Assembly: GCA_031262485.1 (NCBI GenBank) | Contig: JAISHO010000012.1 | Coordinates: 62,001 to 126,000, forward strand | DNA from: Propionibacteriaceae bacterium | GTDB lineage: Bacteria > Actinomycetota > Actinomycetes > Propionibacteriales > Propionibacteriaceae | Direction: 5' to 3' | Length of the DNA stretch: 64,000 bases | In this document: positions 25,356-57,821 of the stretch, one piece after another | Layout of the letters: each line of letters starts with the position of its first letter | Position numbering within the stretch: the stretch's first letter is position 1 | Program-made: the position numbers and the translations under genes | Notes under the pieces: generated by a model | Databases searched by the model: none | What the model was told of the DNA's origin: nothing | What the model saw: the letters and a program-made list of their open reading frames with translations, nothing else

Positions 25356-26150
25356 TCACTTAGCGAAGTAGGAGTCGTAGATCTTCTGATACGTTCCGTC
25401 ATCACGCATCTCTTGGAGCGCGGTGTCGACGCCCTCACGCAGTTCCGGGTTCTTCCCCTTGGCGAAGGCGAAACCGTATTGCTCGTCCGTCTCGTAAGTC
25501 GCGGCAATGACATACTGCGGATCAGCTTCGGTGTGGGCTTGGTTGACGGGGAGATCCTGGAGGATGGCCTGGATCTGATCGGCCTGGATAGCCGGCCACA
25601 GCATGCCGTCGGAGTCGAGTTGAAGAAGAGTAGCGTCAGCCGGTGCGTGCTCCTCGGCGTACGTCTTGCCCGTCGAACCGGTCTGGACACCGATCGTCTT
25701 GCCCGCCATATCGTCCAAGCTCGTGATGCCCGAATCGGCCCGCACGAGGAGAGACTGCAGAGAGTCGTAATACGGCTCGGAGAAGTCGAGGTTGGCCTTG
25801 CGCTCCTCCGTGATCGAGACGGCCGAGGCGGCCATGTCGCACTGGCCGGAGACGAGCGCGGCGCCCGATTGGAGGCCGTCGAAGTCGACGTCGCGGATCG
25901 CCAAGCCGAGGCCGAGGCGGCTGCTGATCTCCTTGACGAGATCAACGTCAAAACCCTTGTAACCGATCTCGGAGCCGGGATCCTCCTCCTCGAACGGAGG
26001 ATACGGGATGTCGGCGCAGACCGTGAGCGTGCCGGCCGTCACCGTCGTGTAACCGGACTCGCTGGTGCCAGCGTCTCCGTCCACACTCGTGCAACCGGTG
26101 GCGACAAGCAGAGAGGCCGCCATGACGGCGAACGCTTTGAGACTCCTCAT
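25356..26150 (-). CDS. amino-acid-binding lipoprotein (SBP family 3)
   Basis: This 264-residue extracellular solute-binding lipoprotein has a signal peptide with lipobox VATGC at about residues 16-20. The mature part follows the family-3 order: LTVCADIPYPPFE, GFDVDLVKEI, DMAASAVSITEERKANLDFS, GKTIGVQTGSTGKTYAEE and a C-terminal GFAFAKGKNPELREGVDTAL. AGAGGATCATC precedes the ATG. Ligand is probably a polar amino acid; the exact one cannot be told. It is the first gene of the importer operon. Confidence 0.92.
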   Translation of the reverse strand: MRSLKAFAVMAASLLVATGCTSVDGDAGTSESGYTTVTAGTLTVCADIPYPPFEEEDPGSEIGYKGFDVDLVKEISSRLGLGLAIRDVDFDGLQSGAALVSGQCDMAASAVSITEERKANLDFSEPYYDSLQSLLVRADSGITSLDDMAGKTIGVQTGSTGKTYAEEHAPADATLLQLDSDGMLWPAIQADQIQAILQDLPVNQAHTEADPQYVIAATYETDEQYGFAFAKGKNPELREGVDTALQEMRDDGTYQKIYDSYFAK

Positions 26151-53937: not shown

Positions 53938-55008
53938 TCAGTCGCGATCGCCCCGGGGCGGAGAATCCGGCTTGCCTTGACCCCGGCGCGGTTTCGAGGC
54001 TCCACCATGGCCATGGCCCAATTCGAGGCCGCGCCCGTGCGGGATGTCGAGACGGTGCAACTCGGCCGGGTCGAGGTGACCTTGGAGTTGCCGTTCGGTC
54101 TCGTCGTAGTGCCCGGAGACGTTGACCGGCTCGAGCATGTTCTGCACCGCCGAGGAGGTGACGTTGATGGGGATCTCCTCAGCCGCTTCATCGTTGAGAT
54201 CGATGCCGCGGGCCCGCATCTTCCTCGACGACCACTCCCCCAGCTTGCCGAGGCCGAAGTTGATGAGGATGAAGATGACGGAGGCGACGAAGATCGTCTG
54301 AAGGGTGTTGAGCGGCGTGCCGAGCAGGGTGGCCTGACGCAGCAACTCGGCGTAGGCGATGGCCTGGCCGAGGGCGGAGTCTTTGAGGGCGACGACGAGT
54401 TGGGCGACGAGCGCCGGCATCATGGCGAGCAGCGCCTGGGGCACCTCGACGTGGGTGAGCGCCTGGCCGCGGCGCAGCCCGATCGCCATGGCGGCCTCGT
54501 GCTGGCCGTGGGGCAGGTTGATGACGCCGGAGCGGACCAATTCGGCGACAACTGAACCGTTGTAGGCGATGAGCGCGATGACGACGGCCCAGAAGGACGG
54601 GTTCGGCAACGTCGTCTGCCCGAGGAAGGTCCACAGGAAGATCATCATGAGCAGAACGGGCACGGCGCGCAGGAATTCGACGACGACGGAGGCGAACCAA
54701 CGCAAGGGCCGGTGCACCGACAATCGGGCGACGCCGAAGAGGAGGCCGAAGATCATCGCGCCGACGATCGACAGGACCGCCGCAGTGATCGTGTTCCACA
54801 GCCCCGGCAGGAAGTAGGCCGTCCACGAGACCGGCTCGAAGATGATCCGCCACATGTCGGGCGACAGTTGGCCGTAATCCCACAACCGGTAGAGCGCCGC
54901 GCCGAGGAGGACGGCGACGATGGCGACGCCGACGATGTTGCCGTACATGATGCGACGGCGGGTCTTGGGCCCGGGAGCGTCGAAGAGGAGGCTTGGTTGC
55001 GCGCTCAT
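53938..55008 (-). CDS. gluD: glutamate-type ABC transporter permease (second subunit)
   Basis: This 356-residue HisM/GlnP-family permease has membrane helices typical of amino-acid importers: SWTAYFLPGLWNTITAAVLS, VVEFLRAVPVLLMMIFLW and the EAA loop GLRRGQALTHVEVPQAL. It carries an unusually long hydrophilic C-terminal extension of about 70 residues. Its ATG overlaps the first permease stop (ATGA). The order gluA-gluB-gluC-gluD matches the corynebacterial glutamate uptake operon. Confidence 0.9.
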   Translation of the reverse strand: MSAQPSLLFDAPGPKTRRRIMYGNIVGVAIVAVLLGAALYRLWDYGQLSPDMWRIIFEPVSWTAYFLPGLWNTITAAVLSIVGAMIFGLLFGVARLSVHRPLRWFASVVVEFLRAVPVLLMMIFLWTFLGQTTLPNPSFWAVVIALIAYNGSVVAELVRSGVINLPHGQHEAAMAIGLRRGQALTHVEVPQALLAMMPALVAQLVVALKDSALGQAIAYAELLRQATLLGTPLNTLQTIFVASVIFILINFGLGKLGEWSSRKMRARGIDLNDEAAEEIPINVTSSAVQNMLEPVNVSGHYDETERQLQGHLDPAELHRLDIPHGRGLELGHGHGGASKPRRGQGKPDSPPRGDRD

Positions 55009-55688
55009 CGCTTCACCGCCAATCGCTGGGAGAGATGGGTGATGAGCACCCCGACGGGCACGACGATGATGACGTAGCCGATGGCGAAGGTGAGGAAGAT
55101 GAGGATGACGTGGTCGGGACGGTTCTCGATCATCGCCGCCATGACGCCGGAGGTCTCCGTCGCGACGGCGGTGGCCGAGGCAACCGTCGTGTTCTTGATC
55201 AACGCGATGAGCGTGTTGCCCAGAGGGGCGACGGCGCCGCGGAAGGCCTGCGGCAGGATGATGATCCGGGCCGACTGGATGAAGGTGAGCCCGATCGCCC
55301 GGGCCGCTTCCGCCTGCCCCAAGGGCACCGTGTTGACGCCCGAGCGGAGGGCCTCCGCCACGAAGGATCCGTGGTAGAGGCCCAGCCCGATGACGGCGAG
55401 GATGTAGAAGTTCGTCGTGAAGGTGTCGGAGAACTCGATGCCGAGCGAGACCCACACGACCGAATACATCGCCACCATGACGATCGTCAGGGGGATGTCA
55501 CGGAAGACGTTGACGTAGAACGTCGCCGCCAACCGCAACGAGGCGATCGGACTGATCCGCATCGCGACAGCCACCGTTCCGAGAACGAGCGAGAGCAGGC
55601 CCGACCAGAAGGTGAGCGTGATATTGACCCAGAAGGCGTGCAGAACGGGATATTCCCGCAACACCTCCCAGTAACCGGTGAGATCCAT
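55005..55688 (-). CDS. gluC: glutamate-type ABC transporter permease (first subunit)
   Basis: This 227-residue amino-acid permease has helices including NITLTFWSGLLSLVLGTVAV, YVNVFRDIPLTIVMVAMYSV and the EAA loop ARAIGLTFIQSARIIILPQAF that meets the ATPase. It is adjacent to gluD (ATGA overlap) and follows the binding-protein gene by 25 bp, so the operon makes a heteromeric channel. Confidence 0.93.
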   Translation of the reverse strand: MDLTGYWEVLREYPVLHAFWVNITLTFWSGLLSLVLGTVAVAMRISPIASLRLAATFYVNVFRDIPLTIVMVAMYSVVWVSLGIEFSDTFTTNFYILAVIGLGLYHGSFVAEALRSGVNTVPLGQAEAARAIGLTFIQSARIIILPQAFRGAVAPLGNTLIALIKNTTVASATAVATETSGVMAAMIENRPDHVILIFLTFAIGYVIIVVPVGVLITHLSQRLAVKR

Positions 55689-55713
55689 GATCGATCCGCT
55701 GCCGGAGGGGGCC

Positions 55714-56592
55714 TCAGCCCTGGGAGGCCTGGGCCGCCAAGCCGGCGAGGATGATGTCGTCGGTCGTCACGGCGTCGATCTGGCCGGCGATGAGCGTCTG
55801 GACACACTCGGAATAGGTCCGCTGCTCGATCAGCTGAACATCAGAGGCGTAGTTGTCCTTGATGTTCTGGGCCGGGGTCGAGCCGGAGACCGAGCAGAGA
55901 CGCTTGCCGCCGTTGAGGGACTCGGGGCCGGTGATCGAGGTGTCGTCGGCGCGCACGAGAAGATCCTGGCCGGCGATGAAGTAGGGGCCGGCGAACTGGA
56001 CCTTCTCGGCCCGGGCCGGGGTGATCGAGTAGGTCGCGAAGATCATGTCGACCTGGTGGTTCTGCAGGAGGGTCTCACGCTGGGAGGAAACGGCTTCCGT
56101 CCAGACGATCTGATCCGGGCTGAAGCCGAGCTCGCCGGCGACATAGGTGGCGACGTCGACGTCGAAGCCGGTGTACTCGTTGCCTTCCTTGAAGCCGAGC
56201 TTGGGCTGATCGAACTTGATGCCGATCGTCAACTTGTCCGGAGTGACGAGGCCGGCGTTGCCCGCAGCGGCGCAGGTCTCGAAGTCGGTCGGCGGGTTCG
56301 TCTCGGCGTTGGGCGTGTATTCGACGCCCTCCATCTCGGCGTCGAGCTTCTCTTGCCACACGCCCTCGTCGATCATCTTCTGGATGGCGGCGTTGACCTG
56401 CTCGCAGTAGGGGGTGTCTTGAGGCAGACCGACGCCGTAGCGCTCGGTCGTGAAGGGCTGGCCGACGACGCGCAGTTCGGCGGTCGCCCCGGAGCGGGAG
56501 GGTGAGTCCCCACCGTCGGAGGAGCAGCCGGTCAGGACGAGACCGGTGGCGGCGACGGCGGTGACGAGGATCGTGAGAGATTTGGTGCGCAT
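55714..56592 (-). CDS. gluB: glutamate-binding lipoprotein with circularly permuted order
   Basis: This 292-residue binding protein has a lipobox (LVLTGC) at about residues 18-23. In normal GluB the order is TIGIKFDQPxLG, ILAG near the end, then a C-terminal LRVVGQPFTTERYGVGL and NAETNPPT. Here LRVVGQPFTTERYGVGLPQD and PNAETNPPT come first (about residues 40-100). Then come LTIGIKFDQPKLGFKEGNEY, QVDMIFATYSITPARAEKVQ and AVTTDDIILAGLAAQ, and the protein ends there. The gene has no stop or frameshift. It thus appears to be a natural circular permutation of a family-3 binding protein. Genes on both sides belong to the same importer. Confidence 0.85.
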   Translation of the reverse strand: MRTKSLTILVTAVAATGLVLTGCSSDGGDSPSRSGATAELRVVGQPFTTERYGVGLPQDTPYCEQVNAAIQKMIDEGVWQEKLDAEMEGVEYTPNAETNPPTDFETCAAAGNAGLVTPDKLTIGIKFDQPKLGFKEGNEYTGFDVDVATYVAGELGFSPDQIVWTEAVSSQRETLLQNHQVDMIFATYSITPARAEKVQFAGPYFIAGQDLLVRADDTSITGPESLNGGKRLCSVSGSTPAQNIKDNYASDVQLIEQRTYSECVQTLIAGQIDAVTTDDIILAGLAAQASQG

Positions 56593-56666
56593 GGGGGTTC
56601 TCCTTCGGAAATGAGGGCGGGCGGCGACTCGGGACGCGACCGCTCGCCTAGCGGGAGGTCGTGGGG

Positions 56667-57485
<819 letters not shown>

Positions 57486-57821
57486 GGCCGGTCCTCCTTT
57501 CACACGGCGAGGCGACGGCGGCGATAGCCACCCTCACCCCGGAGTTTCCAGGACGCGTGGACGAACGAAAGAAACCGGCCCCCGTGGGCCAGCTGATTCG
57601 TCGACACGCCTTCCGCCCCAGAGTGCCCTGTGGATGTTTCATCCAGATGAACAATAAGCACGACGCCGATCACCATGGGGCGGAGATTCACCTTGCCGAT
57701 CCATACTATCAGAGGCCGACCTCAACGAATGAGAAGATCGTCCACGCGGTATCGCCATCTGAGATATCACCGTTGACGACCCTTTTCCCGGCCCACGCCG
57801 TCCTCGGCCTTGAGGACCACT
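57486..57821. other. intergenic region between gluA and pyrC
   Basis: No convincing gene. It must contain the promoter of the leftward gluA operon; 57,650-57,790 is more AT-rich. No known amino-acid or purine riboswitch was recognised. Confidence 0.4.

Follow-up and report, generated by a model that had tools for sequence, protein, structure and literature searches.

Evidence for a single-origin natural circular permutation of the amino-acid-binding lipoprotein GluB in Propionibacteriaceae

The window, by which we mean the whole 64,000-nucleotide stretch of Propionibacteriaceae DNA that was analyzed, carries on its reverse strand a gluABCD operon for an amino-acid ABC importer, in which the gene for the substrate-binding lipoprotein has its two main segments in the opposite order to that of canonical gluB. 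The initial annotation had proposed a circular permutation of GluB among importer genes, and gluA was indeed found upstream, and gluC and gluD downstream, of the permuted gene in the window. The product of the gene is referred to here as cpGluB, and the features of the locus are as follows:

56667..57503, (-) strand: gluA, ATPase, upstream in the operon
55714..56592, (-) strand: permuted gluB (cpGluB), 292 aa plus stop, frame intact
56524..56592, (-) strand: cpGluB signal peptide with lipobox LTGC, residues 1-23, sequence read directly; lipobox in 12 of 12 permuted proteins
56479..56523, (-) strand: variable Ser/Gly/Thr-rich tether linker, residues 24-38; dN/dS ~1.4, no purifying selection
56272..56478, (-) strand: residues 39-107, the canonical GluB end, starting with crossover strand 2 (LRVVG); dN/dS 0.26
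56236..56271, (-) strand: junction of old C-terminus to old N-terminus, residues 108-119; G.A.LVT.G in 12 of 12; dN/dS 0.30 (junction region)
55729..56235, (-) strand: residues 120-288, the canonical GluB beginning, ending after the last helix of lobe 2; dN/dS 0.13
55714..55728, (-) strand: new C-terminal tail (ASQG) and stop codon; a short variable tail in 12 of 12
55005..55688, (-) strand: gluC, permease
53938..55008, (-) strand: gluD, permease, read as 356 aa; alignments with relatives cover residues 1-309 only

The C-terminal extension of GluD (53938-55008) past residue 309 could be real or could result from a frameshift. A second amino-acid binding-protein gene lies elsewhere in the window (25554-25976), and its product has 32% identity to the N segment of cpGluB.

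The initial annotation had read the C-terminal segment of GluB as standing directly after the lipobox and as followed by the usual beginning of the protein, all within an intact frame, and these points were borne out. After the lipobox (residues 20-23, with the cysteine at position 23) and the linker, residues 39-107 (ELRVVGQPF...NPPTDFETC) match the C-terminal stretch of GluB-type proteins and residues 120-288 (KLTIGIKFDQP...ILAGLAAQ) match the N-terminal stretch, with the ILAGLAAQ motif followed by four residues and the stop. In a phmmer comparison with PDB 5eyf, query residues 120-288 aligned to chain residues 16-184 and query residues 39-80 to chain residues 187-229; the two pieces match in swapped order, and the ends of cpGluB therefore correspond to neighboring positions in the ordinary chain. 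Alignment with GluB homologues, which the initial annotation had named as a check, gave an order that is not collinear with standard GluB, the two halves standing in the opposite order in canonical relatives. The junction itself was found at about 56236-56271, just beside the interval of 56280-56300 where it had first been placed.

Sequence matches to Pfam, NCBIfam and the PDB identify cpGluB as a family 3 amino-acid binding protein. The PF00497 profile scored 78.5 bits against a cut-off of 26.4, but its match covers residues 121-220 only, so that the permuted protein would pass as an ordinary one in annotation. When the permuted proteins were re-ordered they were 242-247 residues long, compared with 236-245 in canonical relatives, and the re-ordered protein of the window had 68.5% identity, along its length, to the nearest canonical protein (locus L071), which indicates that no part of GluB is missing from it. 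The N segment has 60-77% identity to near canonical proteins. cpGluB resembles GluB and the type II (cluster F) SBP_bac_3 family (PF00497) in its re-ordered homology, operon, signal peptide, lipobox and motifs, but differs from them in its swapped segments and new 12-residue junction, and in its predicted termini at the hinge, contiguous lobe 1 and single crossover in place of two. The canonical succession of lobe 1, lobe 2 and lobe 1 is replaced by the end of lobe 1, the start of lobe 1 and lobe 2. Since the protein descends from GluB and lacks the segment order that defines it, we name it a permuted GluB derivative and not a canonical member of the family.

The permuted order was present from end to end in 12 distinct genomes from two genera of Propionibacteriaceae: in the window's genus 7 of 19 genomes carry it, the window's own among them, and in a second genus 5 of 7. 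The searches took in related genomes and one genome per species, and the 11 further genomes provide the permuted relatives in the same bacterial family that the initial annotation had suggested looking for. All 12 proteins have the lipobox, the C-derived segment, the G.A.LVT.G junction, the N-derived segment and a stop shortly past ILAGLAA in the same order, and in all 12 loci gluA precedes and gluC follows the permuted gene, with gluD next wherever the locus reaches far enough. The relatives have 65-77% protein identity to the window protein and come from different samples with different assembly naming styles. Given the same order in 11 further genomes, chance and local misassembly both fail as explanations. 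An assembly or binning artefact, in which the halves of a canonical gene would have been joined in the wrong order and which the initial annotation had raised as an error at 56280-56300, is rejected as having a negligible probability: the draft genome behind the window is indeed in 49 contigs, and most of the relatives are metagenome bins, but the same junctions are shared by 12 distinct genomes of diverged protein sequence and varied provenance, and the intact frame continues through the junction with low dN/dS.

Several of the bacteria that carry the permuted gene come from termite guts, as the sample codes Lab288, Emb289 and Nc150 denote gut compartments of Labiotermes labralis, Embiratermes neotenicus and Nasutitermes corniger, respectively (PMC7024585). 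The permuted gene was not detected in the other 12 genomes of the window's genus, which means that it is dispensable there, or was lost, or is missing from incomplete bins. In a separate observation, canonical gluB was found at E 1e-40 in none of the 19 genomes of this genus, although several are >95% complete. Outside the two genera, no permuted forms were found at the thresholds used in 395 genomes of the class, 392 of the order and 198 of the family, and no matches spanning the cpGluB junction were found in 396 genomes of the phylum; the samples share genomes with one another, and a permutation that is distant or arose independently could escape them. The full matches in a scan of genome contigs were all either permuted proteins from Propionibacteriaceae bins or canonical proteins. 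Neither Foldseek nor VIA-align listed a solved structure with both segments in the permuted order, but both programs align sequentially and could have missed one.

The permuted genes are under purifying selection. Across the 12 genes the median dN/dS of the core was 0.16 (0.03-0.16 for close pairs), with the moved segment at 0.26 and the other segment at 0.13, while the tether linker and the tail showed no constraint by this measure. Among the residues that are invariant in both permuted and canonical proteins are R172, R194, S238-T239 and T276-T277-D278, which by their position we take to be the ligand-holding motifs of the GluB-type family. The patchy presence of the gene in the window's genus might be read as that of a non-functional relic which, expressed or not, no longer serves uptake, but we consider this very improbable given that both halves are under purifying selection, the binding motifs are invariant and the operon has been kept.

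When the re-ordered proteins were placed in a tree, the permuted sequences, 12 in all, formed one clade (SH-aLRT 99), which adjoins GluB of a Micrococcales type and does not fall among the canonical GluB proteins of its own family. The N half and the C half each gave a single permuted clade, and for all 12 proteins both halves scored best to the same Micrococcales-type canonical group, from which it follows that one gene was permuted, and permuted once. These results bear directly on whether the gene could instead be a chimera of two different binding-protein genes, its swapped segments having come from two paralogues. Although the C-half tree has few columns and recombination between close relatives could still have occurred, a two-gene chimera is not supported by the half-by-half scores and trees, and we judge it highly unlikely.

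The operons with permuted gluB also form one clade each in the GluA and GluC trees. Median identities of GluC and GluD were 60 and 52% to Micrococcales-type operons versus 49 and 46% to operons of their own family, whereas GluA identities do not separate the two. Within the window operon (53938-57503), GluB, GluC and GluD are nearer to those of Micrococcales-type operons (Cellulomonadaceae and others) than to those of canonical operons of the family. Vertical descent from the canonical GluB of Propionibacteriaceae was considered and is not supported, as GluB, GluC and GluD are all closer to Micrococcales-type operons. The likeness suggests that operon transfer may lie behind it, and in the simplest history a Micrococcales-type operon would have been gained or retained, with its gluB becoming permuted along the path to the two genera. 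Circular permutations usually arise when a gene is duplicated in tandem and the outer portions are then lost. For cpGluB, the most likely route would be a tandem in-frame duplication of gluB that fused the C-terminal end of the first copy with the N-terminal end of the second, after which the first copy would have lost its initial half, past the lipobox linker, and the second copy its final portion. A tandem-duplicated gluB intermediate was not found among the genomes examined.

In type II binding proteins the two lobes are joined by two strands that serve as a hinge. AlphaFold2 predicted a two-lobed fold for cpGluB with high confidence (pLDDT 94.7, pTM 0.89) from the 12 permuted sequences together with canonical fragments, a confidence that may partly reflect memorized SBP folds, and nearly identical elements were obtained from the 12 permuted sequences alone (pLDDT 78.2, pTM 0.75). 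Mature residues 88-268 of the model superposed on 5eyf, the closest solved relative (glutamate-bound, with 36% identity over the aligned part), with Z 17.1 and an rmsd of 2.0 over 179 residues, the moved segment before residue 86 being barely covered by the sequential structural alignment. In the model, the chain opens with the strand that forms the second crossover in canonical GluB (LRVV, residues 40-43), contains the first crossover in the long strand 199-214, and closes with the helix that ends lobe 2 (279-291). This places the predicted cut after that helix and before crossover strand 2, at the inter-lobe hinge, and a cut at this position leaves lobe 1 contiguous, makes lobe 2 the C-terminal stretch and removes one of the two crossovers. 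From topology, alignment and what is known of the family, the lipid anchor would lead into the second hinge strand instead of, as is usual, the strand with which lobe 1 begins. The initial annotation had argued that a permuted fold is feasible with termini lying close together; the confident two-lobed prediction agrees on feasibility, but the closeness of the termini appears less important than the placement of the cut at the hinge.

Taken together, the sequence, the independent assemblies, the phylogeny, the selection analysis and the structure prediction support the circular permutation first proposed for this gene, and we hold with high confidence that the permutation is genuine, that it arose once, and that it affects the substrate-binding lipoprotein of an amino-acid importer of the GluABCD type. 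The protein is expected to adopt the type II clamp of two lobes that is usual in the family, with a single covalent crossover. Tethered outside the membrane, it would bind its ligand, probably glutamate or a similar amino acid, in the cleft between the lobes, close, dock on GluC/GluD and hand the amino acid over. A single covalent hinge may allow freer opening, and hinge stiffness, affinity or kinetics may be changed.

An engineered counterpart bears on this point. In the LAO-BP of lysine FRET sensors one inter-domain linker was deleted and the old termini were joined, and lysine was still bound, with a Kd of 107 uM in the permuted sensor compared with a reported 3 uM for native LAO-BP (PMC5087393). 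This construct is like cpGluB in being a type II cluster F protein with one of two inter-domain linkers removed and new termini on different lobes, but unlike it in being man-made, in its (GGS)4 joint and in having fluorescent proteins on both sides (PMC5087393). The lowered affinity that followed the same kind of cut raises the alternative that cpGluB is functional but differs from ordinary GluB in role or ligand, for example as a lower-affinity or faster binder or one for a different amino acid. A further point in its favor concerns position 131, in the FDQPGLG motif (about 56200-56202): the Gly that all 54 near canonical proteins have there is replaced by His or Lys in each of the 12 permuted ones, a replacement that is possibly linked to the permutation. 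However, cpGluB otherwise has the motifs and the operon of GluB, and the support for a change of ligand is not direct; we regard this alternative of a different role or ligand as unlikely, albeit as the most probable of the alternatives considered. Selection may have restored or exploited the altered affinity seen in the engineered protein. We tentatively put forward, as a possibility at somewhat less than even weight, that a type II binding protein works here with a single covalent hinge and its tether at that hinge, and that this form was selected because the change tunes opening, affinity or docking on the importer.

The initial annotation knew of no such case in this family, and our search of the literature, mainly open-access, did not turn up any naturally permuted member of the type II amino-acid binding proteins. 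Nonetheless, a natural permuted ABC binding protein is known from an unrelated type I family. TpMglB-2 (Tp0684) is a solved natural permuted ABC binding lipoprotein, proposed as Type Ic / Cluster Bc, whose permutation adds a fourth crossover, whose relatives occur in treponemes and Gram-positive bacteria, and for which ligand binding and closure have been measured (PMC4990184). Both proteins are natural permutations of a tethered ABC binding lipoprotein that have been kept across a lineage; however, TpMglB-2 is a type I (cluster B) sugar-binding protein that gains a crossover, whereas cpGluB belongs to an unrelated type II amino-acid family and loses one of two. What appears to be new is a natural permutation in the type II amino-acid family; a natural type I permutation and an engineered type II cut were already known.

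Profile searches report permuted proteins such as cpGluB as ordinary or truncated, which is a warning for annotation. For designers of sensors, cpGluB offers a naturally optimized form of a permutation that has so far been made by hand. Comparison of the permuted protein with a close canonical relative would be a direct test of how many covalent links such a Venus-flytrap protein needs, and of whether the position of its tether matters. In this lineage of Propionibacteriaceae, nature appears to have dropped one of the two hinge strands of a type II binding protein and moved its lipid tether to the hinge, and the protein has been kept under selection.
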